Assembly (NCBI RefSeq): GCF_000379965.1 | Contig: NZ_KB904328.1 | Coordinates: 496,001-560,000 of the forward strand | Origin: Hoylesella nanceiensis DSM 19126 = JCM 15639 | Lineage (GTDB): Bacteria; Bacteroidota; Bacteroidia; Bacteroidales; Bacteroidaceae | Reading direction: 5' to 3' | Length of the DNA: 64,000 nucleotides | Shown here: in pieces, positions 3,195 through 57,733 of the stretch | Position numbering within the stretch: the first letter of the stretch is position 1 | Layout of the letters: each line of letters begins with the position of its first letter | Made by a program: the position numbers and the translations under genes | Notes under the pieces: generated by a model | Told to the model about the DNA's origin: nothing | Seen by the model: only the letters and a program-made list of their open reading frames with translations | Database searches by the model: none

Positions 3195-3282
3195 AAAAGC
3201 GTTGCTATTGAGGTGCAAAAGCAGTGATATTGGGGTGTAATTGCATTGTTTTTGGGCGGAGAAAGCATTGCCTTTGCTTTCG
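3195..3282 (+). repeat. 22-bp repeat array A (four units)
   Basis: Four consecutive 22-bp units at 3195, 3217, 3239 and 3261, starting aaaagcgttgctattg, aaaagcagtgatattg, aattgcattgtttttg and gaaagcattgcctttg. A weaker, slightly longer unit may precede it. It lies in the 512-nt spacer between the sulfatase-fold gene and rnc. Apart from this array and the rnc terminator I see nothing in that spacer. Confidence 0.75.
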
Positions 3283-3473
3283 GGTGGTGCAGACTTGCGC
3301 TGTGAGTGCTTTTCTTTTGCTGTGAAAGGCTTTTTGTTTATTGAACCTATTACTACCCTCTTTTGATGTTTTGAGGCGTTAGAGAGGAAGAATGGTGACA
3401 AAAATCTATGTTGATAGTGGGCAATGTATCTTTCAAGTGTATATAGTCTCTCCCCCACTTCGTTTGTATATAC

Positions 3474-3509
3474 AATTAAAAAGGACGCCAATTGACGTCC
3501 TTTTTAATT
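3474..3509 (-). terminator. Bidirectional intrinsic terminator after rnc
   Basis: Perfect 14-bp stem AATTAAAAAGGACG / CGTCCTTTTTAATT with an 8-nt loop, 5 nt beyond the rnc stop. It has A/T flanks that give a T tract on either strand. Confidence 0.85.
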
Positions 3510-3514
3510 TTCTT

Positions 3515-4543
3515 CTACTCCTTACCTGCAAATGCAGCTTCTTCAGCAGCAGCAATAATTTCTTCTTGTGTGGGTTCTTTTGGATTGGCAGTGATATCCG
3601 ATAAGTCGAATTCGTCAATCTCTTTCATCTCCACAACCTCTTCTTTTGGTTTTCCAGTAGTAGTAATTACTGTTGTTTCTAAAGGTTCTTCTTGAGCAGG
3701 TTGAGTTGTGTTTTCAGTGCTTTCTACGGTTTGTTCTTGGGCAGTTTCTTTGTTCTGCTCGGCTTCTTGTCGTTTTTTCTTGGCTTCAAAAAGGGCATCA
3801 CAGAAACGAGTATTCTTCTTAATATATTCTAATGTTTCTTCTGATGCGAGCTGTTGGCTCTCCTTCTTACTGAAGCCCGATGCCGAATTACACTTAATTC
3901 CCTCGATCACCACGCAGTATTTAAATACAGGGTTGCCTTCATCATCTTTCTTTTGTTCTAACAAGTTGAATGCAATGTTCATCTTGTTCTTTTGCGCCCA
4001 TTCGATAAGTCGGCTCTTAAAGTTCACTTCTTTATAAGCCACTGTGTCGATGTTGACCATCTTTGTTAAGATTTTCTTTTGCATAAAGCGCATGCAAAGG
4101 TTATAACCTCTGTCTAAATAAAGCGCTCCTATGAGTGCTTCGAAGGCGTTTCCAGCCATGTAACTGTTGTGAGAAAAGTTGCGACCACTTGAATAAATGA
4201 GTCGAGAAAGACCAATCTCTTGGGCTATTTTGTTGAGTGTTTCTCTTTGAACAAGCTTACTTCGGGTGTTGGTTAGAAAGCCTTCACGTTTTCCAGGGAA
4301 GTGTTTATATACGATATCTCCGACTATTGCGTCGAGAATGGCATCGCCTAAGAATTCTAATCGCTCGTTGTTTACGGGTTTTCCCTTTTTGTTTTTAAAG
4401 TGAATACTCTTGTGGCTCAACGCCATTTGATATAATTCTATGTTGCGAGGATAGAACCCAAGGATAGTATATAACGACAAATAAAGCTCCTTTTCCTTGC
4501 GGAATGGGAGCTTTATTCTATCTATGAAATTACTATTCAGCAT
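3515..4543 (-). CDS. rnc: Ribonuclease III with acidic C-terminal tail
   Basis: Endoribonuclease for double-stranded RNA (rRNA and mRNA processing). The catalytic domain (about 1-165) has the signature NERLEFLGDAIL and the second metal-binding helix NAFEALIGALYLD. A double-stranded RNA-binding domain follows (about 170-250, with SGFSKKESQQLASEETL). A tail of about 90 residues rich in Glu, Thr and Gln extends beyond the usual 220-250 residues of the family; it looks disordered and is unusual. The gene overlaps the fabF 3' end by 11 nt, so it is translationally coupled to the acpP-fabF operon. A strong terminator follows. Confidence 0.95.
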   Translation of the reverse strand: MLNSNFIDRIKLPFRKEKELYLSLYTILGFYPRNIELYQMALSHKSIHFKNKKGKPVNNERLEFLGDAILDAIVGDIVYKHFPGKREGFLTNTRSKLVQRETLNKIAQEIGLSRLIYSSGRNFSHNSYMAGNAFEALIGALYLDRGYNLCMRFMQKKILTKMVNIDTVAYKEVNFKSRLIEWAQKNKMNIAFNLLEQKKDDEGNPVFKYCVVIEGIKCNSASGFSKKESQQLASEETLEYIKKNTRFCDALFEAKKKRQEAEQNKETAQEQTVESTENTTQPAQEEPLETTVITTTGKPKEEVVEMKEIDEFDLSDITANPKEPTQEEIIAAAEEAAFAGKE

Positions 4544-5795
4544 ATTTCTTGAACACTACACATGCGTTATGGCCACCGAAACCGAATGTGTTGCTAAGCG
4601 CAGCACGCACTTCTCGCTTCTGAGCCTTGTTGAATGTGAAATTCATTTTGTAGTCGATGTTAGGATCATCGTCGCCCTCTTCGTGGTTAATTGTTGGAGG
4701 AACGATGTCGTTTTGCACTGCAAGAATGCACGCCATAGCCTCTACTGCACCAGCAGCACCAAGCAAGTGACCAGTCATTGACTTTGTTGAACTGATGTTA
4801 AGTTTATATGCATGGTCGCCGAAAAGATCCTTAATAGCTTTCGCTTCTGATATATCTCCAACAGGAGTAGATGTTCCGTGTACGTTGATATAATCGATAT
4901 CTTCTGGCTTTAATTGTGCATCTTCAAGCGCATTGCTCATTACAAGCTTCGCACCTAAGCCCTCTGGGTGACTCGCTGTGATGTGATGTGCATCGGCACT
5001 TGCGCCTTCTCCCACCATTTCAGCATAGATCTTAGCACCACGAGCCTTTGCATGTTCGAGCTCTTCTAATACAATACATGCTGCACCTTCACCCATAACG
5101 AATCCATCTCTACTTGCACTAAAGGGGCGAGAAGCGTGTTCTGGGTCGTCATTACGAGTAGATAGTGCGTGAAGTGCGTTGAAACCGCCTACTCCACATT
5201 CGCAAATTGCAGCCTCAGCACCACCACTTACCATTACATCGGCTTTGCCTAAGCGGATAAGGTTGAATGCATCAGCGAGCGCATTGGTTGATGATGCGCA
5301 TGCAGAAGTGGTTGTATAGTTAGGTCCATGAAAGCCATATAGCATCGAAATTTGTCCTGATGCGATATCAGCGATCATCTTTGGGATAAAGAAAGGATTG
5401 AATTTAGGTCCTTCTTCTCTGCGAGTAGCATAGTTGGTAACCTCGTCTTCGAAGGTTTTAATACCACCAATACCCACGCCATACACAACGCCAATACGGT
5501 TAAGGTTTTCTTTTTCTAAATCAAAACCAGCGTCTTTAACTCCCTGCATTGCACTAATGATAGCCAATTGAGTGTATCTATCGAGCTTACGAGCTTCTTT
5601 GCGATCGATATACTCATTGATATTGAGGTCTTTAACCTCGCATGCAAAGGTGGTTTTGAATTTTTCTGTGTTGAAAGCTGTTATAGAAGCAGCTCCACTT
5701 TTACCGTTAATTAGGTTGTTCCAAGTTTCTTCTGGAGTATTTCCAACGGGTGTTACGGCACCAAGTCCTGTAACAACAACTCTTTTAAGTTCCAT
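4533..5795 (-). CDS. fabF: Beta-ketoacyl-ACP synthase II
   Basis: Condenses malonyl-ACP with acyl-ACP in fatty acid elongation (type II FAS, cytoplasm). The 420-residue length is normal. The thiolase-fold active site is intact: nucleophile Cys at about 166 in TTSACASSTNA, His in VHGTSTPVGD and His in MTGHLLGAAGAVEAM. It lies downstream of acpP and overlaps rnc. The 206-nt acpP-fabF gap is unusually long and holds a strong hairpin (5882-5977), which could set relative acpP and fabF levels. Confidence 0.97.
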   Translation of the reverse strand: MELKRVVVTGLGAVTPVGNTPEETWNNLINGKSGAASITAFNTEKFKTTFACEVKDLNINEYIDRKEARKLDRYTQLAIISAMQGVKDAGFDLEKENLNRIGVVYGVGIGGIKTFEDEVTNYATRREEGPKFNPFFIPKMIADIASGQISMLYGFHGPNYTTTSACASSTNALADAFNLIRLGKADVMVSGGAEAAICECGVGGFNALHALSTRNDDPEHASRPFSASRDGFVMGEGAACIVLEELEHAKARGAKIYAEMVGEGASADAHHITASHPEGLGAKLVMSNALEDAQLKPEDIDYINVHGTSTPVGDISEAKAIKDLFGDHAYKLNISSTKSMTGHLLGAAGAVEAMACILAVQNDIVPPTINHEEGDDDPNIDYKMNFTFNKAQKREVRAALSNTFGFGGHNACVVFKKYAE

Positions 5796-5881
5796 TTTTA
5801 TTATTGAATTTAAGTGGAGACCAAAAGTAATATAGAAGATCTAAAAAGTGAATTGATCTACCTGTGCTGTTTAATATACAA

Positions 5882-5977
5882 ATAAGAGATAGATGATGAA
5901 CAAGGAGAGATGATGCGAATAGATTGTTACCCGAGGGCAAATCGCTTCATCTTTCTTTGTTCAAGTCTATCTCTTAT
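5882..5977 (-). promoter_or_regulatory. Long imperfect hairpin between acpP and fabF
   Basis: Two arms of about 36-37 nt (5882-5918 and 5942-5977) pair almost throughout. The ends ATAAGAGATAGA/TCTATCTCTTAT and the inner block GAACAA...GATG.GCGA pair, with a few mismatches and a 23-nt loop. The length and imperfection resemble an RNase III substrate more than a simple terminator, and rnc is in this operon. It has no T tract immediately after it on the minus strand. The function as a processing site is inference. Confidence 0.6.
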
Positions 5978-6001
5978 AGCTCAATTCTCAACTTTTTATA
6001 A

Positions 6002-6238
6002 TTATTTTGAGTTTTCTTCTATGTAAGCGATTGCGTCTCCTACAGTTGAAATTTTTTCTGCTTTATCGTCTGGAATAGAGATATTGAATTCCTTTTCGAA
6101 TTCCATAATAAGCTCAACAGTGTCAAGTGAGTCTGCACCAAGGTCGTTAGTGAAGCTTGCTTCTGGCTTAACTTCTGTTTCATCTACACCAAGTTTATCA
6201 ACGATAATAGCTTTTACTTTTTCTTCAATTGCTGACAT
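6002..6238 (-). CDS. acpP: Acyl carrier protein
   Basis: 78-residue acidic protein carrying the phosphopantetheine attachment motif [14 protein letters not shown], with the modified Ser at about 37. It carries growing acyl chains for FabF and the other FAS enzymes, and 3-hydroxyacyl groups for lipid A. It is the first gene of the acpP-fabF-rnc unit. Confidence 0.97.
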
Positions 6239-6596
6239 AATTCTTTGTTTTTTAAATGTTTGTAATTAAATTTCTAAGTGAAAATCGCATGCAAAGAAAC
6301 GACTTTTTATTTAATTCAGCAAATATTTTTCTCAAAAAACGACCTTTTTTGCACAGAAGGGGGTAGTTTGTGCATACTTTTTAGGTCTTTTGACGAGAAA
6401 AATGAGCCTTTTTTTGTTTTTCGTCTGATGCACTTTTGGGGTGTTTGGGGTGAAAATGACCTCGTTAATGCCCTCTTTTTGCTTTTTAAGTCCCTTTTCT
6501 TTCGCCTTTACACCTTATTATATATAAGAGAGATAAACCCAAAATGAGGAAAAAAGAAGAGAATATAGATGACCAAACGAGCCAAAGAGAGGTTTT

Positions 6597-6684
6597 AAAA
6601 GCACTGCTTTTGAAGGATAAAAGCAGTCTTATTGCAATTGAAAAGCAGTGCTATTGCAAGACAAAAACAATGCTATTGCAAAGC
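6597..6684 (+). repeat. 22-bp repeat array B (four units)
   Basis: The clearest array: units at 6597, 6619, 6641 and 6663, starting aaaagcactgctttt, aaaagcagtcttattgc, aaaagcagtgctattgc and aaaaacaatgctattgc. It lies in a 727-nt region (6239-6965) between acpP and the lipopolysaccharide kinase gene. The remainder of that region shows no convincing gene; the short ORFs in it have odd composition. Confidence 0.85.
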
Positions 6685-6965
6685 AGGCGAATAGACCTGC
6701 TTTGAGAAAGACTCTGAGCTTTGAAAATAAGTAGAATGAGATGCTTGCGCAACGGACGTGCGAAAGTGGAAGAAGGGACGGAAAAAGGAAGCGAAGTGGA
6801 AGGAACAAACAGCAGAACTCTACTGACAATGTTGAAATGTTGAGATGAAAAGATGATGAGTTGAATACAGAATGCAGGCAAACTGGACTGTGAAGATGGG
6901 CAAGTGGACTGCAGAAGAAGTACGATGAGGCTCACTTGTCGAAACGAAAGGCGGTAAACGGGCAA

Positions 6966-7721
6966 CTAATCGAGCGGAAAACTGATGTAATGTCGCTTGC
7001 CATAGTTCTTCCAAAACTTGTTTCTGTGCATCACAACAAGTCGTTCGCACTCGTCAACATCAAAGTTTCTGGCTTTGGCATAGGTTCTTGCCATGGTTCT
7101 AAAGATATCGGTAATGCCCCAAAGACGTGCAAAATTGGCACAGCCTTCGTTGATATCTATCTGCTTAAACTCCATTCGGTTGATGTCGATCACTGCAAAG
7201 TGATATCCCTTTTCGTCCTTATCCCAAAGAATATTACCAGGCGAAAAGTCTTTATGCAACACCCCTTCGTTGTGCATGTGCGCCGTGAAAGCCGCCAAAG
7301 CCTCGGCTCTTTCAAAGGCTTCGCCATCTCGTTTGCCACCCATATCGTATAAATCATTGGTATAAGGGCATTTGATGTAGGCGTAATAAGTGTATTGCAA
7401 GAGGTGTAAGCCGTTGCGCTCTTCGATATAAGCAACGCTCTGCGGAGTTTCTATTTGTTTCTTTTTAAGGATATAAGGAAACTGAAAAGCCCTTAAACCC
7501 TTTGGCTTTCGGATATTTAAAGAGTAGACAAGTAGATTGAAAAACGAAGGTTTACGAAATCTCTTCACGTTAATCGTTTCGCCATTAGGCAGGGTAAACG
7601 ATTTAATGGTGTTGCGTCCGTCGTATATCTCCACGCCTTCTGTGTCGAAGATAGAAGGAATAGAGGTTAAAAACGCACGCATGTCTTCGTATTGTTCATC
7701 AATCATTATTTTGTATGCCAT
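6966..7721 (-). CDS. Lipopolysaccharide core heptose/Kdo kinase-like protein (WaaP/InaA family)
   Basis: 251 residues with a small protein-kinase fold. The catalytic loop HKDFSPGNILWD (about 155) matches the HxDxxxxN pattern, followed by FAVIDINRM in the position of the DFG metal site. In this family the enzyme phosphorylates Kdo or heptose of the LPS inner core at the cytoplasmic face. It is the last gene of a minus-strand lipid A/core operon behind a GT4 glycosyltransferase, which supports the assignment. The exact acceptor sugar is not visible. Confidence 0.8.
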   Translation of the reverse strand: MAYKIMIDEQYEDMRAFLTSIPSIFDTEGVEIYDGRNTIKSFTLPNGETINVKRFRKPSFFNLLVYSLNIRKPKGLRAFQFPYILKKKQIETPQSVAYIEERNGLHLLQYTYYAYIKCPYTNDLYDMGGKRDGEAFERAEALAAFTAHMHNEGVLHKDFSPGNILWDKDEKGYHFAVIDINRMEFKQIDINEGCANFARLWGITDIFRTMARTYAKARNFDVDECERLVVMHRNKFWKNYGKRHYISFPLD

Positions 7722-7764
7722 ATCTTTTCGGGGTCTTATATAATGGTTGGTATAAGCAAATGTC

Positions 7765-8922
7765 TTATTTCTTCATCGATAAACGCTTGGTTTCGATGGT
7801 TTTAAGGTATTGTTGTTGCACTTGAGCTGCCACGTTATTGTTTTCGAATCGGGTGACATATTCACGGGCTTTTTGCGCTCTTTGGACTCTTTCTTCGGGG
7901 TTGTCGAGCAACTGTTTCAATGCCGCTGCCATGCCTTCAACATCGTCTGGGTGCACATATAGGCACGAGTCGCCTCCCGCTTCTTCTAAACATGAGCCCG
8001 TACAAGCCACAACACTCAATCCACATTGAATGGCTTCGATGATTGGAAGACCGAAACCTTCGTAGCGAGAAGGGTACACAAAGCAGGTGGCAAGCTGATA
8101 AATGCCCGCTAAATCGTCGTTGTTCACATTGTTCAAGATGTGCACTCTATCGCTAAGGTTGTGATTCTTTGCCCACGCTTCAATCTCTTTTGTATAGGGA
8201 GTGTTGCGCCCAACGATAACAAGATGGGTGTCGTTAGATAGCAAGGGTAATGCCTTTACTGCCAAAAGAACGTTCTTTCGCTTCTCAATGGTGCCCACAT
8301 TTAAAATGAATTGTTGTGGCAATTGAAACTTGTTGCGAATTGTTTGCAATTGATTGTCAGAGAGATGGGTTTGAAAACGCTGTGATGCCGATTGATAAAT
8401 CACGTCGATTCGCTCTTCAGGATAATGCCCAAAGTGCATGATATCGAATTTGGTTCGCTCGCTGATAGCGATGATTCGGTCGGCTTCTTGACAGGCTTTC
8501 TTAAACTTCCAGCGATAAATTGCCACGTCAAGAGGGTTGTAAAATTCGGGATGACGAAGGAAAATAAGGTCGTGAATGGTTACAACTGCTGCCGTGTTGG
8601 TGTGCTTTATGCCGATAGGAAGCTCGCCCGATAAGCCGTGAAATAGGTCTATTTGGTCTGCTTTGATTTGCTTTGTGATGCCAAAGGTGCGCCACAAGCT
8701 GCGCATAAGACCGTTAGAGGCGTTTTGAGGATAGACGTATTGAACCTGATTGCTATGGATTACCTGACTTCTTAGCTGCTCATTGCCAAACGAAGGCGTG
8801 TAGAGCAGTAGCTTATCATTAGTTTCTAACAATGGAACTAATGAGTTAATGAGGTTTCTTCCATAGCTTCCTAAGCCCGTGTTGTTATTCACTATGCGCT
8901 TAGCATCATATCCTATAATCAT
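7765..8922 (-). CDS. GT4 family glycosyltransferase
   Basis: 385 residues with a GT-B fold. The N-terminal domain has GLGSYGRNLINSL. The C-terminal nucleotide-sugar-binding domain has NVGTIEKRKN (about 217), LVIVGR, VYPSRYEGFGLPIIEA (about 283, with the E-x7-E motif) and ACTGSCLEEAGGD. It transfers a sugar from an NDP- donor, probably to the LPS core given its place between the acyltransferase and kinase genes. The gap to the kinase gene is 43 nt. Donor and acceptor cannot be read from sequence. Confidence 0.88.
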   Translation of the reverse strand: MIIGYDAKRIVNNNTGLGSYGRNLINSLVPLLETNDKLLLYTPSFGNEQLRSQVIHSNQVQYVYPQNASNGLMRSLWRTFGITKQIKADQIDLFHGLSGELPIGIKHTNTAAVVTIHDLIFLRHPEFYNPLDVAIYRWKFKKACQEADRIIAISERTKFDIMHFGHYPEERIDVIYQSASQRFQTHLSDNQLQTIRNKFQLPQQFILNVGTIEKRKNVLLAVKALPLLSNDTHLVIVGRNTPYTKEIEAWAKNHNLSDRVHILNNVNNDDLAGIYQLATCFVYPSRYEGFGLPIIEAIQCGLSVVACTGSCLEEAGGDSCLYVHPDDVEGMAAALKQLLDNPEERVQRAQKAREYVTRFENNNVAAQVQQQYLKTIETKRLSMKK

Positions 8923-8947
8923 TGCTTATTGGTGTTTTGGGTTGTAA

Positions 8948-9862
8948 CTACTTAGGAACAACCTTGCCATTTTCTATTATAAATCTGCTATCAAACTCTT
9001 CTTTGGTGCGCTTCCAACGCTTATGTGTCCAAAGATAGAAATGTGGTTGATTTTTAATTGATTGTTCGAGCATTTCAAAGAACTTACGAGTTATCTCGTG
9101 TTCTGCCATGCTATTGGGGTCTTTTGTAATCAAACGGAATTCACAAACATAGTAACCTCGCTTCGGTCTGTTCATCTCTACGTAGTAAACAGCATTGTTC
9201 ATCTTTCGCATTATGCGCTCTGCTCCCGTGAAAACAGGCGTTTCGTGGTTTAAAAAAGGTAGCCAAAGATGAATGTTTTGCCATCGAGGTGACTGGTCAG
9301 AGATATACCCAAACAAGCTTCTTATGCCCTCTTTGCGATATTGAACGAGGTATCTTAGGATCTCATTCTTAGGCACTGGCACTCCACCAACGCACGAACG
9401 AAGATCGATAAACAGCTTGTCTATGGCCTTGTTTCTAATGGGTTTGTAAACAAGTCCAACCTTTCTCTCGCTCGGAAGACTGATACCTACACACGAAAGC
9501 CATTCCCAATTGCAGTAATGTCCTAATATTGCGGCGCAATCTTGACCATTTTTAAAACACGATTCAAGGTCTTCTGCATTGCGAATGGTGAGTCGTTTGC
9601 TCAGCTCTTCTTTGCTTATAGATAGCAGTTTCACCGATTCAATAAAGTAATCGGCAAACCATCGGTAGAATTTTCGTTCGATTTCTTTTAGCTCTTCTTT
9701 CGACTTTTCGGGGAAAGAAGATGCAAGGTTGCTCTTCACCACATTTCTTCTGTATCGTAAGATGTAGTAAATCAATACGAAACCCATGTCCGATAGGCGA
9801 TAAAGGCACCACATCGGCAATAGAGAAAGGGTGTAAAAGAAAGCGTAAACCAATCTATACAT
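8948..9862 (-). CDS. Lipid A acyltransferase, LpxL/HtrB family
   Basis: 304 residues. An N-terminal membrane segment (YAFFYTLSLLPMWCLY) is followed by the HX4E catalytic motif GHYCNWEW (about 118), and later KPIRNKAIDKLF and SDQSPRW blocks typical of LpxL/LpxM. It adds a secondary acyl chain to lipid A using acyl-ACP at the inner membrane, so it depends on acpP encoded 3 kb away. It sits 66 nt after msbA and 25 nt before the glycosyltransferase gene in one operon. Confidence 0.88.
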   Translation of the reverse strand: MYRLVYAFFYTLSLLPMWCLYRLSDMGFVLIYYILRYRRNVVKSNLASSFPEKSKEELKEIERKFYRWFADYFIESVKLLSISKEELSKRLTIRNAEDLESCFKNGQDCAAILGHYCNWEWLSCVGISLPSERKVGLVYKPIRNKAIDKLFIDLRSCVGGVPVPKNEILRYLVQYRKEGIRSLFGYISDQSPRWQNIHLWLPFLNHETPVFTGAERIMRKMNNAVYYVEMNRPKRGYYVCEFRLITKDPNSMAEHEITRKFFEMLEQSIKNQPHFYLWTHKRWKRTKEEFDSRFIIENGKVVPK

Positions 9863-9928
9863 AATCTGTTTAAATAGCTTTATTGTGTTGATTATAAACT
9901 TGTTGCGAAGTAAAAGCAGCGTTGTTGC

Positions 9929-11755
9929 CTACTTTTGCATGTCGTTTAATCGTTTATAATAGCCGTTTTTATTCAATAGTTCTTCGTGAGTTCCCTGCTC
10001 AACAATCTCTCCTTGATGCAGAACACATATCTCATCGGCATGTCGAATGGTTGAAAGTCGGTGTGCAATAGCGATAGTTGTGCGGCTTTTCATTAATCTT
10101 TCTAAAGCGTCTTGCACCAATCTTTCACTCTCAGTGTCGAGTGCACTGGTTGCTTCATCAAGTATTAAGATAGGCGGATTCTTTAATATTGCACGGGCAA
10201 TGCTCACTCTTTGGCGTTGACCTCCAGACAAACGACTACCTCTGTCGCCTATGTTTGTGTCGTATTGTTGCTCCGATTGCATAATAAACTCATGTGCATT
10301 GGCAATCTTTGCCGCCTCTTCAATCTGCTCTAAAGAAGCGTTTTCCACTCCAAAAGAAATGTTGTTTCTAAACGAATCGTTAAAAAGAATAGCCTCTTGG
10401 TTTACATTTCCCATCAATTCTCTTAGGCTATTGATACCTAAGTCCTTAATGTTTATGCCGTCGATGAGTATCTCTCCCTCTTGAACATCATAGTAACGAG
10501 GAATCAAATCCACAAGAGTACTCTTGCCACTACCGCTCTGTCCCACCAAAGCAACAGTCTTTCCTTTAGGAATAACGAGGTTAATATGGCGCAAAACCCA
10601 TTGTTCGTTGTATTTAAACGAAACGTTTTTGAATTCTATTTGATGATTAAATCCATTGATTTGAACAGGCTTTTCGGGGTCTTTAATAGCTATTTCAGCC
10701 TTTAATATCTTATCTATTCGCTCCATAGAAGCCAATCCTTTGGGGATAGCATAACCCGCTTTAGAAAACTCTTTCAATGGGTTAATGATGCTATAAAGTA
10801 TCACAAGATAATAAATAAAGGTCGAACCGCTAATCGAGTCGTAGTTTAATACGAGCATTCCACCAAACCAAAGCACCACAACTATCATCACTGTGCCCAT
10901 GAATTCGCTCATTGGGTGAGCCATTTGTTGGCGAATTGCAACCTTTTTAACGCTGTTTCGATAGTCGCTGTTCACCTTATCGAATCGCTTATTCATCTTT
11001 TCCTCAGCGCAAAACGCCTTAATAATGCGCAAACCGCCAAGAGTTTCTTCCACTTGACTCATGGTATCGCTCCACAATCCCTGTGCAGTTAGCGAGCCAG
11101 CCTTTAGCTTTCTGCCCACAAGACCCATGATCCAGCCGAACAAAGGTACAAAAAGAAGGGTGAAAATGGTGAGCTGCCATGAGATAAAAATAAGTGTACC
11201 AAAATAGATAATGATAAGAATTGGGTTCTTAAAAAGCATATCTAACGACGACATGATAGAGTTTTCCACCTCTTGAACATCGCCACTCATTCGTGCAATG
11301 ATATCTCCTTTGCGCTCTTCAGAGAAGAAACCCATTGAAAGAGAGGTGATTTTGCGATACAACTGATTGCGAATATCACGCACAATACCCGTTCTAATGG
11401 GGATAATAGATGCCGAAGAAAGGAAGTATGCGCCCGTTTTTAAGAACGTCATCACAGCCAATAGCAAGCCAATAACAAGTAAAGTAGTACTTGTTCCATG
11501 CACATCGATAAGCTGTTGCACATAGTAATCGGTGTTATTGCTCACCACTTCCTTTAAACTTGCTTCGTTCCAGCTCATTAAACGAGTTGCAACCGCTACT
11601 TTTTCCGTTTGAAATAGGATTTGAAGTATAGGTATAAGCGCTGCAAAAGAAAAGATATTTAATACTGCCGACAGTATGTTAAACAGCACAGAGAGTGCCA
11701 AGTACTTTTTATAAGGTGGCACAAAGCGACGTAAAACCTGTAAAAACTCTTTCAT
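9929..11755 (-). CDS. msbA: MsbA-type lipid A exporter ABC transporter
   Basis: Fused permease-ATPase half transporter of about 608 residues. Six transmembrane segments occupy about 10-310. The ATPase has Walker A GQSGSGKST (about 399), signature LSGGQRQR, Walker B ILILDEATSALD and the switch His in IAHRLSTI. It flips lipid A-core across the inner membrane. The frame is open for 16 more codons to a GTG at 11803, but a consensus promoter (TTTG-N19-TAACTTTG) occupies exactly that stretch and ends 8 nt before the ATG at 11755. I chose the ATG, which makes the mRNA leaderless or nearly so. A single 22-bp repeat-like unit (9912-9933) overlaps its stop codon. Confidence 0.92.
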   Translation of the reverse strand: MKEFLQVLRRFVPPYKKYLALSVLFNILSAVLNIFSFAALIPILQILFQTEKVAVATRLMSWNEASLKEVVSNNTDYYVQQLIDVHGTSTTLLVIGLLLAVMTFLKTGAYFLSSASIIPIRTGIVRDIRNQLYRKITSLSMGFFSEERKGDIIARMSGDVQEVENSIMSSLDMLFKNPILIIIYFGTLIFISWQLTIFTLLFVPLFGWIMGLVGRKLKAGSLTAQGLWSDTMSQVEETLGGLRIIKAFCAEEKMNKRFDKVNSDYRNSVKKVAIRQQMAHPMSEFMGTVMIVVVLWFGGMLVLNYDSISGSTFIYYLVILYSIINPLKEFSKAGYAIPKGLASMERIDKILKAEIAIKDPEKPVQINGFNHQIEFKNVSFKYNEQWVLRHINLVIPKGKTVALVGQSGSGKSTLVDLIPRYYDVQEGEILIDGINIKDLGINSLRELMGNVNQEAILFNDSFRNNISFGVENASLEQIEEAAKIANAHEFIMQSEQQYDTNIGDRGSRLSGGQRQRVSIARAILKNPPILILDEATSALDTESERLVQDALERLMKSRTTIAIAHRLSTIRHADEICVLHQGEIVEQGTHEELLNKNGYYKRLNDMQK

Positions 11756-11763
11756 AGATGTTG

Positions 11764-14141: not shown

Positions 14142-14273
14142 GATAGGCAGAACGATTCCCTTAAACGTCGAAAGCGTGACAAGGAGCGTTCGAGATAAAC
14201 TATAAGAATTTTCAACATAACGACCTCTGGCACTCGATGTGCTATGTCGTTGAGCAACAACACTTTTGATGTT

Positions 14274-50246: not shown

Positions 50247-50309
50247 TCGCTAAGATTATAAATGCAATCTTCTCTTTTAAATACTTGTGTTAGTAACCAA
50301 GATTTGTGC

Positions 50310-50554
50310 AGAGCAGAACAGGAATTTAAGGAAAGTATGCTCGGTTACCGCTTGAAGAAAGATAGAAACATCAACTTCTTGGATTACTACCAGGCTTACA
50401 TAGATACTAACTCTAAGAAAGACCTACAAATGATGAAGATTGCCTTGAATCGATTTAAGGATTTTTTGAAGAGCAATATCTCGTTTATGAGTTCAGTATC
50501 AAGCCCAAACTAATAACCAAAGATACGATGGATCACTTTGTTGAATATATATAA
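50310..50554 (+). pseudogene. Truncated, frameshifted integrase remnant
   Basis: Reads RAEQEFKESMLGYRLKKDRN and ALNRFKDFLK, then in another frame EQYLVYEFSIKPKLITKDTM and FVEYI before a stop. It is nearly collinear with residues of about 100-185 of the intact integrase at 44969-46192, but in opposite orientation. The catalytic domain is gone. It marks an earlier related element. Confidence 0.85.
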
Positions 50555-50702
50555 TTAGTACTGGTGTATTTTCAAACTCCATACCTAACTCATGAAGTAT
50601 AGTATATATCGCATCCGATTTGTCGTGTCTCCCATTTGCATTTAAAACTACAATAAGGTGCTGTAATTTCTCTTGGAGCTTATAATATTCATCTGATAGC
50701 AT
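50499..50702 (-). CDS. Possible small protein (67 aa)
   Basis: The first 45 residues (MLSDEYYKLQEKLQHLIVVL...ILHELGMEFENTP) look like a helical protein; the rest runs antisense through the integrase remnant and has no protein-like character, so the original C-terminus may be lost. The upstream minus strand has only a weak TACCTTTA promoter-like element. Confidence 0.35.
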   Translation of the reverse strand: MLSDEYYKLQEKLQHLIVVLNANGRHDKSDAIYTILHELGMEFENTPVLIIYIQQSDPSYLWLLVWA

Positions 50703-51030
50703 CGTATTTTAATTTGATGTAAAGGTAATAATATTTGTTTTCTCAAGTTATTTATTTTCAAGTTTCTGCTAACTCTTTGCAAATTTCAATTTGAATCATC
50801 ATTGTTATCAATCGCTTTCAGTTTCTTCTCAGGTATAAGCCAGGTATAAACTTACAACAATATGTACTCTTTTGTGGCGTGAAAACTACTCTAAAGACAC
50901 CCATCGATTTCTTATAAAATTGCTTATTTCCATTCTTTCACCCACCCTTTCGCCCTCCATCTTTCTTCCCTTCCTCCCCTCAAATCATAAAAAGATGGAG
51001 TTTTTTGCATTGCTTTCCCCAAAAAAGCAG
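50703..51030. other. Junction between island remnant and chromosome
   Basis: No gene, hairpin or clear att repeat seen. Codon and base composition return to the chromosomal pattern after about 50.85 kb. Confidence 0.4.
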
Positions 51031-51038
51031 TATATTTG
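51031..51038 (+). promoter_or_regulatory. Promoter -7 element of the DUF4840-like gene
   Basis: TATATTTG with TTG about 18 nt upstream (51010-51012). It implies a leader of about 130 nt before the ATG at 51173. Confidence 0.5.
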
Positions 51039-51172
51039 TAGGAAGAAAACGAAGCTGACCCAACAAAGAGATTTCGCATTTTGACTGTACCAATCTACAT
51101 GAAACGAGGAACCCCTTACATTGTATCAGTATTCATAAAAAGTAGTATAATCAATTGAAACGCATACGAATT

Positions 51173-51832
51173 ATGAAACAACGATCATTTATTTTATTCG
51201 TCTTAGCCGTGTTTTGCATCGGTTTGATGTCGTCTTGTGATAGTGAAAACAACGGCGATGTTCGAGTGTTGACCAAAGAAGAGAAAGCAAGAGCTTTGAG
51301 TCTTACCGTTGGAGAATATACAACAGGCATGACCTTTGTGCTTAATCAGCTTTCTAAACCAGGCTCGAAGTATAACAAAGTAGACACCGTTCGCAACATA
51401 AAGTGCAGAGTGGCTAACGACACAACGCTCACCATCGCTTCTATTCCCATGCGAGCTTTGACCGACTTTATAAAAGACAGCAATTTGAAAGCAGCCTTAA
51501 ATCAAGTAGAAGCACAACCACTTGTTTGTAAAATCAACTTCTACGACGATGCTCCTATTTGTTTTCTTATAACAAAAATACAGCCTCAAACCTTCAAAGT
51601 GACATACGGAGGCAAGCAACACACAGTGGTTCAAAACTATGATGTGGCAGCTCCTTGGTCGTGGGGATATTATGATTACAAGTTTTCTAAGGATCTTTTT
51701 GCGATCGTTACTACTGGAAAGCTGACCGTAGATGGCGTAGAAGTGCCCCTACAAGCTACCACTATTGCGGTGAATACAACGCCCGATAATATCTATAGTG
51801 TAGACCTTTTACGAGCAAAATATAAGCAATAG
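51173..51832 (+). CDS. DUF4840-like lipoprotein
   Basis: 219 residues from the ATG at 51173; the frame extends six codons further to a TTG, which I reject. Lipoprotein signal with the lipobox LMSSCDSEN (Cys about 23). The mature part is beta-rich (LTVGEYTTGMTFVLNQ, GKLTVDGVEVPLQATTI), as in DUF4840 lipoproteins of Bacteroides and Prevotella. Surface or periplasmic; function unknown. A single gene at the chromosomal edge of the island. Confidence 0.75.
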   Translation: MKQRSFILFVLAVFCIGLMSSCDSENNGDVRVLTKEEKARALSLTVGEYTTGMTFVLNQLSKPGSKYNKVDTVRNIKCRVANDTTLTIASIPMRALTDFIKDSNLKAALNQVEAQPLVCKINFYDDAPICFLITKIQPQTFKVTYGGKQHTVVQNYDVAAPWSWGYYDYKFSKDLFAIVTTGKLTVDGVEVPLQATTIAVNTTPDNIYSVDLLRAKYKQ

Positions 51833-52013
51833 CACATCAACGAGATGTTTTAATGTGATAAAAGAAGGGAGAATAGCCACAGAGCTGCTCTCCCTTTTTC
51901 GTGTTCTCTCCCACCCTTTCCCCTCCCTTTTGCCCCTTCTCTCCCACTCATCATAACATATTTAAAAGCAGTGAGATAGACATTCCTTCCAAGAAGATAT
52001 TTGCGGATGCAGA

Positions 52014-52101
52014 AAAAGCGGTGATATTGCGCCCCAATTGCAATGTAATTGGTAGATAAAAGCAGTGCTATTATGAGCAAAAAGCATAGCAATTAGATAC
52101 A
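52014..52101 (+). repeat. 22-bp repeat array F (four units)
   Basis: Units at 52014, 52036, 52058 and 52080, starting aaaagcggtgatattgc, aattgcaatgtaattg, aaaagcagtgctatta and aaaagcatagcaatta. A further isolated unit-like sequence (aaaagcagtgagatag) lies at 51964, out of phase. It is in the 477-nt gap between the DUF4840-like gene and susD, which otherwise holds only a terminator. Confidence 0.8.
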
Positions 52102-52238
52102 TAAAGGCAGAAAGCCGTTAAATAAAGCATTTTAAATGCGCTACAATCGATTAATATAGTTCGATGTGAGCATTGTGTTGCGAAAGCAAATAGAAGCAGT
52201 TAGAGGCAAAGAAAACGGCAATGAGGCGACAAAAAGCA

Positions 52239-52280
52239 ACGAGCGAGACACCCATAACATAGTGTCCCGCTCGTTTTGTA
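52239..52280 (-). terminator. Bidirectional terminator after susD
   Basis: Arms ACGAGCGAGACAC (52239-52251) and GTGTCCCGCTCGT (52262-52274), 13 bp with one mismatch. A T tract follows on the plus strand and TTGCTTTTTG on the minus strand. Confidence 0.75.
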
Positions 52281-52309
52281 TCGTTAAATATAATCTATTT
52301 CACCGATAA

Positions 52310-54073
52310 TTATTCCCAACCAGGGTTTTGTGTTAGTTGCTTGTTAAGCACCAATTCTTGTTTAGGAATAGGATATAAGAAACGACGATCGTTGGTTTTC
52401 CATTGTCTTCCTGCATCATCAAGCTTCTTAGCAGCCTTGTATTGGTATAGATATGTTGCGCCATTGTATTCTATTGTTGGGCGACCTGTTTGGCTATCGA
52501 ATGTGCCTGCAGGGAATCCGCTGATAGATTGTGGTGTAATCTTAATACCAAACATTGTTTTTGGATTAGACATTAGCTTCATTGCGTTCCAACGTTTGAG
52601 GTCATCAAGGCGGAATCCTTCAGCAATAAGCTCAATTCGGCGTTCACGTCTAATCTCATAAAGAAGATTAGAGAGTGTATAACCATAATCAATAGGCTTC
52701 GCATCGGTAACAGGAGATGTGGTTAAGTGAGGCATTCCCACACGGTCACGCAACTTGTTGATGGTCTTATCAAGCACAGCTTGTGTGCAAGTGTTCAATT
52801 CTGCATTCGCTTCGGCATTGATTAACAACACTTCTGCATAACGATAAACGAACCAGTCGAATGTAGAGTTACGTGCTTCTTGTTGCACAGTGTTTGCATG
52901 ATGGAACTTAACGCAGTCGTAACCCGTTACAGCTTTGCTCGATCCTACTCTATTTGCAGGCTCGTTAGCAATGCGTTCGCCGTTGCGTACATAGTATGGT
53001 TTGTGACTATTGTCTACAATTTGATACAAACGGGGGTCACGATTGGTTATTTCTTGTTCTAAATCGTCGTCGCCTGCATAGCCAGAACCACTGTTGTAGA
53101 TAGGTGTTCCGTCTTTCATTAAGAACGATTCGATAAAGTCTTTAGATAAACCCATACCGCCATTTTGTGCTTGTCTACCTAATTCGTGAGTCAAAACACC
53201 TGTTTCATAGAAACGAGCAAGAATACATTCTTTGTTGGTTGAAAGGTCTTCTTGGGTGAATTGGTTTGAATAGTAGAGTGGATAATTAGCGTAAGGAAGT
53301 TGGTCGCAACCTGTATCTGTACCCTTCACGATGTCGAATTTGCCACTGTCCATCAATGTATCGGTTTGTGCCACCGCTTCTTTTAATAGCGCATTAGCCG
53401 CTAAGTCGCCTGTACCTGTTTGGTTGTGGTATTTCTTATAAGTACCAAAGTGAAGATAGATGCGTGCCAATTGGGTACGTGCAGCTTCTTTGTTGAGGCG
53501 TCCAGACTCTGATAATGACTTCTCAGGAAGCCATCTTATAGCAAATTTAAAGTCCTCGATAACATGCTTAAGCACTTCGTCTTGAGGGTCACGGCCTTTA
53601 TATAGTTGCTCTTTATCATCGGTTTGAAGGTCTGAATCATAGTAAGGCACGTCGCCAAACATCTTCAATTTGTTGAAATAATGCAAGCCACGGAAGAAGC
53701 GAACCTCTGCAACATACTTGTTAATTTCATCTTGACTGCCTTGAACTTTATTGTAACGTTTCATAAAGTAGTTGCAATTTCTGATGTCGTCCCAATACCA
53801 TCCGTTTCCTGCAGATGCCTCTGTGGGTACAGTCATCTCATCAAATAGATAAGAACTATAGTTAGTTGTAACGAAGTTATCACTCACATTGTCGAGCGAA
53901 GCCGATGGACTGCTCAATGCTCCGTATAGTCCGTTGGCATAAAGTTTTAAGTCTTTGGTTGTGTTCCAGTATGTTTGATCTGTGAAAGAGTCAAGCGGAG
54001 ACAAGTCTGTATAATCACACGCAGCTGCCATTCCTGCAAGTAATGATAGTGCGATATAATTTTTAAATTTCAT
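52310..54073 (-). CDS. SusD/RagB-type nutrient-binding outer-membrane lipoprotein
   Basis: 587 residues from the ATG at 54073 (MKFKNYIALSLLAGMAAACD, lipobox Cys about 20). TPR-rich SusD fold with family blocks EVRFFRGLHYFNKLKMFGDV, LNKEAARTQLARIYLHF, VYRYAEVLLINAEANAEL and EIRRERRIELIAEGFRLDDL, ending in LNKQLTQNPGWE. It caps the SusC pore and captures glycan or other oligomers. The gene follows susC by 28 nt. No glycosidase or regulator is next to the pair, so the substrate cannot be inferred. Confidence 0.92.
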   Translation of the reverse strand: MKFKNYIALSLLAGMAAACDYTDLSPLDSFTDQTYWNTTKDLKLYANGLYGALSSPSASLDNVSDNFVTTNYSSYLFDEMTVPTEASAGNGWYWDDIRNCNYFMKRYNKVQGSQDEINKYVAEVRFFRGLHYFNKLKMFGDVPYYDSDLQTDDKEQLYKGRDPQDEVLKHVIEDFKFAIRWLPEKSLSESGRLNKEAARTQLARIYLHFGTYKKYHNQTGTGDLAANALLKEAVAQTDTLMDSGKFDIVKGTDTGCDQLPYANYPLYYSNQFTQEDLSTNKECILARFYETGVLTHELGRQAQNGGMGLSKDFIESFLMKDGTPIYNSGSGYAGDDDLEQEITNRDPRLYQIVDNSHKPYYVRNGERIANEPANRVGSSKAVTGYDCVKFHHANTVQQEARNSTFDWFVYRYAEVLLINAEANAELNTCTQAVLDKTINKLRDRVGMPHLTTSPVTDAKPIDYGYTLSNLLYEIRRERRIELIAEGFRLDDLKRWNAMKLMSNPKTMFGIKITPQSISGFPAGTFDSQTGRPTIEYNGATYLYQYKAAKKLDDAGRQWKTNDRRFLYPIPKQELVLNKQLTQNPGWE

Positions 54074-54101
54074 AATAAAATTGTTTTTAGAAGGTGACAC
54101 A

Positions 54102-57100
54102 TTAGAATGTTAGATTCAAACCTACAGCAATTTTCTTGTTAATTGGGTAGGTCATGTTGCTTAAAGTCTCAGGATCAAACGCCTTTATGAGCGAAGTGAA
54201 GGTGAATAGGTTTTCACCTGTGATGTAAACTCTAAGACGTGAAACACCAATCTTGCTAACAATAGATTTAGGAAGGGTGTATCCTAAGGTTACATTCTTA
54301 AGTCTACAGTAGCTTGCATTTTGCAAATAGCGTGTACTAACAGTACGGTTACCTCTGTTTGCCCATCCTAATTTAGGGAAGTATGCACCTGTGTTCTCTG
54401 TAGTCCAATAGTCGAGAGATGTTGTAAGCGGTGTTTGCCACTCGTCAGTGAAGCCCCAAAACGCTGCAGTACCAGAGCCTGGGAACCAATCACGCTTACC
54501 AATTCCTTGCCAGAACATTTCGAAGTCGAATCCTTTATACTCGAGTCCAGCTGTAATACCATAAGCAAAGCGAGGTGTTGAGTTACCAATTATCTTTCTA
54601 TCACCAGGGTTTGCCAATGTGTTGTCGCCTATATCGATCTTGTTATCGTTGTTTAAGTTCTCGAAACGAACGTCACCTGCTCCCCATTTACCACCATATA
54701 GGTAAGATTGGTTAACGTGATCTGTAGCCTCTTGGTCGCTTTGGAAGAGTCCATTAGATACAAATCCCCAGATTTCATTCATCTTACGTCCTTCGTAATA
54801 TTGGCTAATTAGGCCTGTAGGGTTATTGAACTTGGTGATAGTTGATTGATAATCAGATAGCACACCCTTAACATGATAAGACAAACCGCATGCTAAACGG
54901 TCGTTCCATTCCAATGAAACTTCCCAACCAACAGTCTTTAAGTTAGCTGCATTTTGGCGTGGAACGCCTGCTCCTAACACTGAAGGAAGCACCTCACCAT
55001 TGACAAGCATGTCTTTAGTATTACGACGATACCAGTCGAAAGAGAAGTTAAGACGATTGCGAAGGAATGTTGCATCGATACCTAAGTCAATCTGATTCAC
55101 TGTTTCCCATGTGAAAGAAGAGCTCACAAGACCTGGTGCTGTGATGGCAACAGGGCGTGTTCCGCCAAGGATTGCGCCATATTTGCTATTAATTCCATAG
55201 GTAGCAAGATATGGGAAGTTACCATCTACCACCTGATTACCCAAAGATCCGTACGAAGCACGTAGCTTTAAGTTGTCACACCAGTCCTTCATGCTTTCAA
55301 AGAACTTTTCTTCTGATGCACGCCAAGCCACAGAAACAGATGGGAAGAACTGATAACGATATCCTTTTTTGAATTTAGATGAACCGTCGTAGCGGCCGTT
55401 TAATTCAACAAGGTAACGTCCTTTATAGTCGTAGTTGATACGAGCAAAGGCGCCATTAACCGACCATTGACCCATATTTCCATCGATATTCATATCTCCT
55501 GTTGCCTGATTGACAGCTGGATTGTTAGAATCTATCAAGTCTTTTCTACCTCCAAAGTAGTAATCGGTGCGTTTTTTCTCTTGGTTATAACCCAACATAA
55601 ACTTAAAGTTATGCGCTTTTTGGTCTAAAGAGAGAGCATATTCTGCAAACGCATTGAATGAAGAATAGTAGTCGTTATTGCTCACTTTGGTTACACTACT
55701 TGGGTTAGTCCAAGGATAATAGTTTTCAGTTCCTGGTACAGCAGTGTAGTCGTAGAAGTTACGAACGTGCTGAGTTGAAGCCCAACCATAGTAGTTCCAT
55801 GTGTAGTCGGCATTGATAACAAGACCTTTAAGCGGAGTAAGTTTCACGCCAGCAGTCATCCAAAGGTCGTTTTGACGAGAGCTTGCGTTACCGCCTTGAG
55901 CCTGAATTGCAACAGGGTTAGTGAAGTTTCCTTGTCCAGCATAATGGCCATCGGGGTGCTTAACAGGCATTAATGGACTCAAGTCTGATTTCATCATACC
56001 GCTATAAGCAGAGATACCAGAGTATGCAGTCGAGTTCATTGCAGTTGTTCCACCTGTTGGATGCATTTCAGTTGTATAGGTATGAGCGATCTTAGCCGAC
56101 ACTTCCATCCATGGAGTTAATTCAGATGTGATGTTAATGTTAGCGTTATACTTGTTGTATTTCTCGTTTGTTGCCTTTAAAATACCGCCTTGATTGTTTG
56201 CGCCGAGCGAAACATAGTAGCGAGTTTTTGACTTCCGCCGCTAATACTTGCGTTATAAATTTGCGAGAACGATGTTTTATAAAGCTCTTTCCACCAGTCT
56301 GTGTTACCATTATAGCCATATTTGAATGTACTATAGCTCTTATCGAAGAAAACAGGCTGATCATAAGTGCCGTTCATGTATTTTTCTGTATACGAATAAA
56401 CCAATGGATTGAAGTAATGTCCACTACCACCGCTGTTTTGATAAGCGATGTCTATCATCTTAAGATAGTCTAATGAGTTGACATTATGCATTTCAACAGC
56501 GGGCTTTTGCCAGTATCCTGAAGCCGAGAACTGCACTGTTGGGCGAGAATTTAGCTTACCTTTCTTAGTGGTAATGAGGATAACTCCATACGCAGCACGT
56601 GCTCCATAGATAGCAGCAGAAGCCGCATCTTTAAGCACAGAGATAGATTCTATATCGTCGGGGTTCACTAAGTTGGCGTCCATTTGTACGTTATCCACCA
56701 ACACAAGCGGTCCTCCTCCGTTGAGAGACGTTGTACCACGAACGTTAAACGATGCTCCTGCGCCAGGAGCTCCACCCTTACCCATCGATACATTGAGGTT
56801 AGGTACAACACCTTGGAGGCCTTGTCCGAGGTTACTAATAGGTCTATTCTCGAGCACACTACCGCTAACTGAAGCCACAGCACCAGTTAAGTTGGCTTTC
56901 TTTTGTGTGCCATAACCCACAACAACCACCTCATTTAGGTCGTTAACGTCGCTTTGTAGGGTGATGCGCATGCCGTTTTGAGCTTTAGCACTGTGCGATT
57001 TAAAGCCCGTGTACGAGAAAGTGAGCTGCGTTCCGGGTGCAACATTAATAGAGAAGTTACCATCTAAGTCGGTAACAGTTCCTGCAGAACTACCCGTTGC

Positions 57101-57304
57101 ACGTACAGTTACACCAATAAGAGGCTCTCCTGTGTTACTAAGAACCGAGCCTTTGATTTGCTCTGCAGGCCGTGTTTGTTGAGTGATAGTGTTAGATGCT
57201 CCTACCGAAACAGCGGGAAGGAGTAGCATTCCACACACTAAGGTGGTGCTTCGCAATAGATGATTGAAGCTCATCTGTTGCGTCTTGTAGGTTAATCTTT
57301 TCAT
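54102..57304 (-). pseudogene. SusC/RagA TonB-dependent transporter, frameshifted
   Basis: Together about 1068 residues. The N-terminal piece (57304-56177) has a signal peptide, carboxypeptidase-like CNA domain (GSVLSNTGEPLIGVTVRATG), TonB box-like VVVVGYGTQKK and plug domain (SISVLKDAASAAIYGARAAY). The C-terminal barrel (to 54102) ends in INKKIAVGLNLTF. The reading frame is lost at a run of five A on the coding strand (56229-56225): one extra A restores SGGSQKTRYYVSLGANNQGG, the normal plug-barrel sequence. The rest is intact, so a sequencing error, a very recent mutation or homopolymer slippage are all possible. Confidence 0.88.
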
Positions 57305-57387
57305 ATTTATGTTTATCAAAAAAGGTTTATTGTCTCTTCAATACAGAGGTTTAAAGCGTGTTTAGTGATTTAAGTCAACTGTAAATG

Positions 57388-57395
57388 CAAATATA
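57388..57395 (-). promoter_or_regulatory. Promoter -7 element of susC
   Basis: TATATTTG on the minus strand, about 84 nt before the ATG at 57304. The -33 side is weak. Confidence 0.5.
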
Positions 57396-57645
57396 TGGAA
57401 AGATTTTTGTAAATCATCTCTGCGCAGCTTTCATTCTTAGTTAAATAGTTTAAAGTATTGAGAATAAAAGAGAAAGACTATTTTTGCTACCTTATTATAT
57501 AAGAAAAAGACACCAGCCACTCTCCCATTTTGATACTTTTAGTGCAAAAAAAGTAGACAACATGTAGGCAAAATAAAAGCTCTTACAAGCACCTTGCACA
57601 CCTGTTGCATTGCCTGTAAGAGCTAAAAGAATTTGTTGTTGTTCT

Positions 57646-57733
57646 AATATCAATGTAATTGCACGCTAAAGTCAATGCCATTGCAGTGTAATAGCGATGC
57701 TATTGTGAACCAAAAGCTATGCTTATTTCAACG
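57646..57733 (+). repeat. 22-bp repeat array G (four units), overlapping a gene end
   Basis: Units at 57646, 57668, 57690 and 57712, starting aatatcaatgtaattgc, aaagtcaatgccattgc, aatagcgatgctattg and aaaagctatgcttatt. The last unit contains the stop codon (57723-57725) of the aldo/keto reductase gene, so the array slightly invades coding sequence. Confidence 0.8.

Follow-up and report, generated by a model that had tools for sequence, protein, structure and literature searches.

The intergenic DNA of Hoylesella nanceiensis DSM 19126 = JCM 15639, a Prevotella-group bacterium with a genome of 2.65 Mb (G000 below), contains hundreds of short arrays, most of them composed of four 22-bp units, each with a near-palindromic core of 15 bp. 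These arrays lie in phase with a rhythm of AA and TT steps of about 10.98 bp, which runs through the surrounding DNA including the coding sequences. Seven of them are found in the window, the whole stretch of 64 kb (C2:496001-560000 of G000) from which the analysis started. In the likeliest explanation, tentatively held, a nucleoid protein that wraps DNA cooperatively would dock at the arrays, and its fibre would continue along the neighbouring DNA.

Four sites at a spacing of 22 bp

The seven arrays named in an initial annotation of the window are all present, each with its four sites at exactly 22 bp (Table 1), and the one at 14274 has to be corrected only in its strand, being best read on the minus strand. 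A unit matrix makes all seven stand out; Tandem Repeats Finder (minimum score 30) detects three of them (3193, 6597 and 22396). This 15-bp palindromic matrix was seeded with the units of the window and refined on matches in C2:1-400000, C1:1-400000 being kept out of the refinement, and four sites were scored together at fixed spacing. With this four-site model, 64 places in C2:1-400000 score above 20, and 61 of these above 40; the reversed sequence has none above 15 (one above 10 and two above 5), and the shuffled sequence none above 5. Altogether 110 arrays score above 25 in 864 kb (39 in C1:1-400000, 64 in C2:1-400000 and seven in the window), C1 being poorer than C2 in arrays and also in the register described below.

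The constancy of four units and of the exact 22-bp phase, as claimed from the window, is borne out at this scale. At periods of 15–33 bp other than 22, the 800 kb of C1 and C2 yield a single match, at 33, and none for 15–32. Chains of sites at exactly 22 bp in C1, C2 and the window comprise four sites 80 times, three sites 16 times, two sites 20 times, and five and six sites once each, while no chain of at least two sites is found in the reversed control. A score above 3 is reached by each of the four sites in 93–97% of the 110 arrays, and by an adjacent fifth site on either side in 2–3%. The distances between pairs of sites in C2 are 22 bp in 182 cases, 44 bp in 127 and 66 bp in 72, near a ratio of 3:2:1, followed by a drop to 10 cases at 88 bp and 13 at 110 bp; the arrays therefore stop at four sites. 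Over the whole genome, a three-site pattern with at most three mismatches gives 438 forward and 412 reverse matches and, when read backwards, none, and from 2.64 pattern matches per known array (90 of the 110 known arrays being matched) the genome is estimated to carry about 320 arrays. A rare six-unit array lies at C2:234358-234482 (L042 14358-14482). Single sites over the threshold number 849 in C1, C2 and the window versus 477 in the reversed control, and isolated sites may exist too.

Conserved cores and random linkers

The alignment of 68 oriented arrays (61 from C2 and seven from the window) gives a unit of the form AAAAGCA-N-TGCTWTT, an imperfect palindrome of 15 bp, followed by a weakly conserved linker of 7 bp. 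AAAAGCA, AATAGCA, AATTGCA, AAACTCA and others occur as half-sites. The internal dyad symmetry proposed in the initial annotation is present, although its strongest form is AAWAGCA-N-TGCTWTT, with its centre at unit position 8, and not GCAAT-N3-ATTGC. Selection on spacing and dyads rather than on identity, which had also been proposed, describes the differences between species (see below); within the genome, on the other hand, the sequence is too strongly constrained for this, AA and TT steps at the unit ends being present in 89–99% of 107 arrays.

Across 428 units, no positive covariation is seen at any of the seven pairs of half-site positions in the core (z -3.1 to +0.9), and a single pair of linker positions, 22 and 16, is complementary slightly more often than expected by chance (z +2.0). 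Independent half-sites of this kind are the pattern of a protein dimer rather than of an RNA hairpin, and the latter was set aside on this test, including the possibility of an RNA-level element raised at first.

Units of the same array share a core identity of 0.730 and units of different arrays one of 0.728, and the corresponding linker identities are 0.32 and 0.30. The linkers of whole arrays have a mean identity of 0.364, equal to that after column shuffling. The arrays are therefore not recent tandem duplications, an origin that was considered and rejected, and few of them are recent copies of each other: 21 of 5671 linker pairs are more than 0.7 identical, versus 7 in the column shuffle, so that a few arrays may be copies. 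The cores have been held and the remainder has been randomised.

In the features tested, the arrays show no sign of being CRISPR, REP or MITE elements, in agreement with the initial annotation. Instead of a repeat-spacer layout, there are head-to-tail cores of about 0.73 identity with variable 7-bp linkers. No terminal inverted repeats are seen within 60 bp of the 68 aligned arrays, where only weak TT/AA steps in 22-bp phase occur. The REP-associated Y1 transposase (RAYT, PF01797) has no match in G000, nor in two of the other genomes studied, G003 and G012, and has matches in G016, G073 and G134. A hairpin kept by compensatory change, as in REP/BIME, is not seen in the core of the 428 units.

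A chromosome-wide register of AA and TT

In the flanks, AA steps on one side of an array and TT steps on its other side recur every 22 bp over hundreds of bases, and the best phase drifts slowly, corresponding to a bulk period of about 21.96 bp. The Fourier transform of 400 kb has sharp AA and TT peaks near 10.98 and 21.97 bp and a GC peak near 10.98 bp. When the arrays and 200 bp on each side are masked, the AA peak is 113 in C2 and 37 in C1, and in coding DNA only it is 102 and 37, respectively; AA power in three other bands is 8–16 in C1 and C2, and codon permutation lowers the value for C2 to 10. At lags of 11–22 kb, autocorrelation at 10.98 bp still exceeds the noise (1.07 versus 0.10 in C2 and 0.67 versus 0.11 in C1, all ×0.001). 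Followed in 5-kb blocks of C2, the phase mostly drifts smoothly, with some jumps, and is lost in some blocks. As many as 39 of the 40 20-kb blocks of G000 examined (800 kb of 2.65 Mb) have a power above 10 (9.6–190 for all 40), the 95th percentile of the null being 7.3–10.4. Shuffling of synonymous codons cuts the coding peaks of C2 from 102 (AA) and 110 (TT) to 18–28 in four shuffles, and those of C1 from 37 and 51 to 11–17; the register is therefore mostly written in the choice of codons.

Both ends of the window have the register, and it is lacking in the middle block, which contains the genes of an integrative mobilizable element (Table 1). These encode a DUF5906 protein, a primase-like protein, a MobA relaxase, a type I restriction-modification system (two HsdS-like proteins and one HsdR-like protein) and a tyrosine integrase. 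This one mobile element served as an internal negative control, and the coordinates given are the span of its genes, not its exact ends. Another block of weak register, C2:380001-400000 (L050), has GmrSD-like and EVE/AAA_5 (McrB-like) genes as well as one for a 2056-aa RHS/DUF285 repeat protein, and is possibly an island.

Table 1. Arrays, stretches in register and mobile element of the window
Feature	Position	Strand	Remarks
Array 1	3195..3282	+	Four 22-bp units, each with a 15-bp near-palindromic core; matrix score 66.5
Array 2	6597..6684	+	Matrix score 76.3
Array 3	14274..14361	-	Units start at 14361, 14339, 14317 and 14295; matrix score 58.2
Array 4	17320..17407	+	Matrix score 60.1
Array 5	22375..22462	+	18 bp past the stop codon of gene 20647-22356; matrix score 73.1
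Array 6	52014..52101	+	Between convergent genes; matrix score 63.6
Array 7	57646..57733	+	Matrix score 53.6
Stretch with 10.98-bp AA/TT register	1..28000		1.85-fold modulation; chi2 295.6 (10 degrees of freedom, no power threshold)
Stretch with 10.98-bp register	50001..64000		1.83-fold modulation; chi2 113.0
Genes of integrative mobilizable element	29316..46192		No array; no register in block 28001-50000 (chi2 8.2)

Arrays and register in phase

For each of the 110 arrays, the phase of the DNA around it was measured from the array start, with 300 bp masked on either side. The AA resultant is 0.79 within 1 kb, 0.73 within 2 kb and 0.55 within 4 kb, and five sets of 110 random points in C2 give 0.01–0.11 within 2 kb. 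The modulation of AA/TT is 0.30–0.32 between 60 bp and 1.6 kb from an array, 0.28 between 1.6 and 3.2 kb, and 0.23–0.24 beyond 3.2 kb, the register thus being somewhat stronger near arrays. This link between array and register is a finding in G000 alone.

The register is strong enough for a leave-out prediction, in which the phase of a segment is estimated solely from DNA 150–2500 bp away and a segment is dropped when the power of its neighbourhood is below 4. For the 525,621 coding bases lying over 1 kb from the nearest array, AA frequency varies with the predicted phase from 0.077 to 0.141 (1.8-fold). The share of AAA among the Lys codons, AAA/(AAA+AAG), ranges over 0.44–0.755 on the plus strand (n = 6253) and 0.40–0.79 on the minus strand (n = 6371); codon choice for Phe, Asn and Asp behaves in the same way, and TT is predicted too. 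For all DNA, chi2 at 10.98 bp is 7248 in C2 and 2313 in C1. Six wrong periods applied to C2 give chi2 of 5–22 (10 degrees of freedom) with 91–373 of 5947 segments kept, which makes the power of this control weak. Escherichia coli K-12 (50 kb) gives 14–15 with 101–110 of 447 segments kept, and G025 from another Bacteroidales family (100 kb) gives 13 with 101 of 947; neither value is significant, although these two controls are likewise of weak power and may hide a weak rhythm. Ratios of maximum to minimum in these controls are 1.10–1.40.

Placement among genes

As judged from genes predicted by a home-made gene caller, six of the 109 arrays that were classified overlap a gene by more than 40 bp and the other 103 by at most 40 bp, which agrees with the intergenic placement claimed for the window. 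In the window, the fourth unit of array 7 runs into the 3' end of the minus-strand gene 57723-58613. There are 30 convergent, 64 co-directional and 15 divergent arrays versus 53, 210 and 53 gaps of at least 100 bp, respectively, and 41 of the 64 co-directional arrays are closer to the end of the upstream gene than to the start of the next one. The arrays are thus intergenic and lean to the 3' sides of genes. The single Lrp/AsnC (PF01037) gene of the genome (L077 1282-1779) is followed, by eye, by an array at about 1885-1972 and then by a glutamate-dehydrogenase-like gene.

Other species

A fixed-lag scan for self-similarity, which is blind to the sequence and looks for clusters at each lag, was applied to other genomes and to 80 loci of 5.6–20.5 kb around lrp, of which 72 are not labelled as Bacteroides or Phocaeicola (a few being labelled just Bacteroidales or uncultured bacterium) and eight are so labelled. 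Lag 22 stands out in G000, G012, G016, G073, G134 and G003. G010 has two lag-22 clusters when runs of N are excluded. The Bacteroides/Phocaeicola set has six such clusters in 131 kb, the next best lag being 33 with three, and the 72 other loci have 42. No lag-22 cluster is found in E. coli (50 kb), G025 (100 kb) or other families (286 kb). The 22-bp period thus recurs in the Prevotella, Bacteroides and Phocaeicola DNA sampled. Raised counts at lags 14 (23 clusters), 21 (24), 28 (10) and 35 (8) in the 72 loci (L138-L217) suggest 7-bp repeats.

Four is the commonest unit count in G016, G073, G134, G003 and both sets of loci, and three is the commonest in G012 (four arrays with three units and three with four). 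Longer 22-bp arrays of more than four units occur in metagenome-assembled genomes (L160 16317-16560 and L151 16439), and hence the four-unit rule is not absolute. The unit sequence is AAAACCTACGGTTTT in P. falsenii and AAAAGGTAACCTTTT in P. bivia, and TTCCCAACGTGGGAA, GTTGACTTAAGTCAAC and others are found in metagenome-assembled genomes; G003 has several different palindromes in one genome. Between species the 22-bp geometry is kept and the palindrome differs, in the DNA sampled from these three genera. One array family of G003 recurs elsewhere in the genome with related flanks (27 BLAST matches, eight loci aligned). By eye, these flanks (L262-L269) resemble additional 22-bp units with other sequences, rich in pyrimidines to the left and in purines to the right, as though the 22-bp spacing extended beyond the four sites.

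As for the register, leave-out prediction with the best period of each genome gives chi2 of 885 in G016 (11.02 bp), 556 in G012 (10.95 bp), 329 in G073 (11.00 bp) and 157 in G134 (10.95 bp), and a weak value of 45 in G003. Power near 11 bp exceeds 12 in 23 of the 72 loci outside Bacteroides and Phocaeicola and in none of the eight within (11.9 in L208), the 95th percentile of the null being mostly 8–10. Weak peaks near 11 bp are also present in array-free stretches of other Bacteroidales families, namely L270 and L271 of G018 (13.4 and 14.0) and L286 of G027 (12.6). Among 398 genomes sampled, the nearest relative shares about 71% identity over a single gene. Conservation of the register between orthologs exceeds the null of synonymous shuffling with z of 5.5 (158 pairs, mean nucleotide identity of 63%), and with z of 4.8 in 14 gapless pairs; since the raw sum is negative (-18.0 versus -103.8 for the null) and z stays below 2 in three of five groups, this is suggestive only.

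Relation to known systems

The closest precedent of the arrays is PINSR, a 188-bp sequence reported in 2015 from one clade including P. intermedia (PMC4755523), which is a high-copy intergenic repeat outside mobile elements as the arrays of G000 are (about 320 copies, 103 of 109 intergenic by the above measure, and none in the element of the window). P. falsenii JCM 15124 has been found positive for PINSR by PCR (PMC4755523), and the locus L157 from this very strain bears arrays of 22-bp palindromes, two of three copies sharing flanks by eye; for this reason, and by comparison of descriptions rather than alignment to the consensus, which is in a figure, PINSR is probably one clade's version of the arrays. 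It differs in that the portions of its description available to us contain no four-site 22-bp geometry, no counterpart of other sequence elsewhere and no link to a DNA register (PMC4755523). Porphyromonas gingivalis, also of Bacteroidales, has intergenic short tandem direct repeats of 22, 23 and 41 nt, including BrickBuilt and 464/PgRS (PMC4596501). BrickBuilt, however, is described there as having from 1 to 22.8 copies of 23 nt inside a MITE with a leader, a tail and terminal inverted repeats. The 22-nt tandem repeats cited for strain W83 (PMC4596501) may belong to the same class as the arrays.

Helical periodicity of bacterial genomes is known from the same AA/TT steps near 11 bp, also within genes (PMC3431218, PMC4132750, PMC7537859). 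According to the portions consulted, it is persistent in some chromosomes and absent from the prophage stretches of two (PMC3431218), and it is tied to codon selection and reaches at least 1 kb in E. coli, where Atzinger and Lawrence regard a binding partner as likely and its role as unclear (PMC7537859). G000 shows the same hallmarks over most of the chromosome examined, down to the absence of the signal from the inserted element. It goes beyond the published cases in that distant phase predicts codons at 1.5–2-fold, autocorrelation reaches lags of 11–22 kb, and four-site arrays lie in register. Apart from PINSR and the 22-nt repeats cited for W83, no account of such four-site 22-bp arrays turned up in a literature search that covered subscription papers thinly.

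Candidate readers of the arrays

Several DNA-binding proteins were considered as readers of the arrays. Lrp/AsnC proteins form octamers of four dimers, which bind phased 15-bp palindromes and wrap DNA. The arrays share with such sites the number of dimers, the 15-bp palindromes and the proposed wrapping. Lrp was favoured at first, since G000 has a single PF01037 match with an array just downstream, and was dropped because its helix-turn-helix stretch, VSGAAIHQRIQKL, is identical in 11 loci, most of them from genomes with other palindromes; a DNA-reading helix that is invariant while the palindromes differ argues against Lrp as the reader, as the helix would be expected to vary with its site. 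We know of no genome-wide four-site rule for BldC. Its mode of binding, as cooperative multimers on direct repeats, is akin to the one proposed here, as far as the consulted part of its description goes (PMC5859096). HU-HIG proteins have four matches in G000, three of them over the cut-off, and nothing ties these to the arrays. Ten proteins encoded next to G003 arrays were scanned, and no common DNA-binding neighbour is found among them.

Explanations of arrays and register

The possibility of a cooperative array for a dimeric architectural protein, raised in the initial annotation, fits the palindromes, the independent half-sites and the fixed four-site geometry best, the protein itself being surmised from these. 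Its dimers would occupy the 15-bp palindromes of the arrays as high-affinity sites, four side by side, with one dimer per two helical turns (22 bp, at 11 bp per turn). Complexes of this kind might then continue along the neighbouring DNA with no strict demand on sequence, as a fibre of wrapped or bent DNA whose natural repeat is about 21.96 bp. Either weak selection or a bias in mutation due to this fibre would set AA and TT steps in register over kilobases, chiefly via synonymous codons. If a dimeric protein bound four sites cooperatively at intervals of two turns, the palindromes, the independence of half-sites, the usual count and the fixed helix face would be explained. The non-integer bulk period and the absence of the rhythm from the inserted element argue for a physical register rather than copying, and this together with the four-dimer sites suggests a nucleoid fibre that docks at the arrays. 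The protein, its wrapping, its cooperativity and a share of the arrays in setting the register are what we infer from these patterns.

Several points weigh against this explanation. The register persists far from arrays (modulation of 0.23 beyond 6.4 kb), a nearby array thus not being required, and agreement of left and right phases across arrays is only modestly above random (0.36, n = 131, versus 0.21, n = 480). For arrays of other species, no better phasing than that of random 88-bp segments could be shown under equal thresholds (0.56, n = 38, versus 0.50, n = 260). Three of 20 stretches from 11 genomes of other families have powers of 12.6–14.0 without a lag-22 cluster; the weak register may be wider than the arrays and may not require them. 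Palindromes specific to each species demand a fast-changing specificity or several proteins, and no binding protein has been identified among the candidates examined. Atzinger and Lawrence, in the part of their work consulted, argued from E. coli and lytic phages that periodicity is not for compaction (PMC7537859), a point against a role in packaging.

An unlikely alternative, though the most serious one, is a mutational footprint: a nucleoid fibre or superhelix would make mutation or repair periodic, so that AA and TT build up unselected, the arrays being either the sole selected part or the strongest footprints. A neutral bias would leave its signal strongest at synonymous positions, exactly where shuffling removes it in G000; nevertheless, the array cores are kept while the linkers are random, which needs selection there, and the correlation with codon selection led Atzinger and Lawrence to regard periodicity elsewhere as not simply mutational, as far as the consulted text goes (PMC7537859).

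It is distinctly unlikely that the arrays are dedicated multi-site operators of a transcription factor and the rhythm a separate general property of DNA. Dimer-like palindromes on one helix face would suit operators, as would the array seen by eye just downstream of lrp and the weak rhythm of some array-free families; about 320 arrays with a lean to 3' ends, both within co-directional gaps and in the excess of convergent over divergent settings, would not, and the phase match between arrays and bulk DNA would be left unexplained.

Spread of the arrays as an interspersed selfish repeat, REP- or PINSR-like, by a mobility system and their later decay appears quite improbable. The high copy number, the PINSR precedent and the recurrence of one G003 family with related flanks speak for it, whereas linkers as alike as column-shuffled ones (despite the small excess of similar pairs), units equally alike within and between arrays, the lack of terminal inverted repeats and the lack of RAYT in three genomes (despite its matches in three others) speak against it. 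An RNA-level element, a terminator or an array of hairpins in 3' untranslated regions, is scarcely tenable in spite of the 3' placement, the self-complementary units and the slight excess of one linker pair, given half-sites that do not covary positively, the absence of Rfam matches reaching the gathering score from the window and three blocks of weak register, and surrounding DNA, coding included, that shares the phase of the arrays.

Implications

A reader of the helical periodicity has been lacking for decades, and the arrays, being in-register sites of 88 bp that can be synthesized, offer a bait for such a partner. The effect is large enough for codons to be predicted from distant DNA. If the docking-site explanation is true, DNA packaging would partly determine which synonymous codons are used in a genus common in the gut and mouth, codon-based inference of selection, expression and gene transfer would need correction for helical phase, and foreign DNA would be recognisable by its missing register. 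A further-reaching and rather doubtful generalisation is that Bacteroidaceae might possess a sequence-registered chromatin, a fibre with a repeat of about 22 bp that runs for kilobases, is anchored at hundreds of four-dimer sites with a sequence taste varying between species and a constant geometry, leaves its imprint on codons, and makes newly inserted DNA recognisable as still out of register. Arrays and register together hint at chromatin-like packaging of bacterial DNA.

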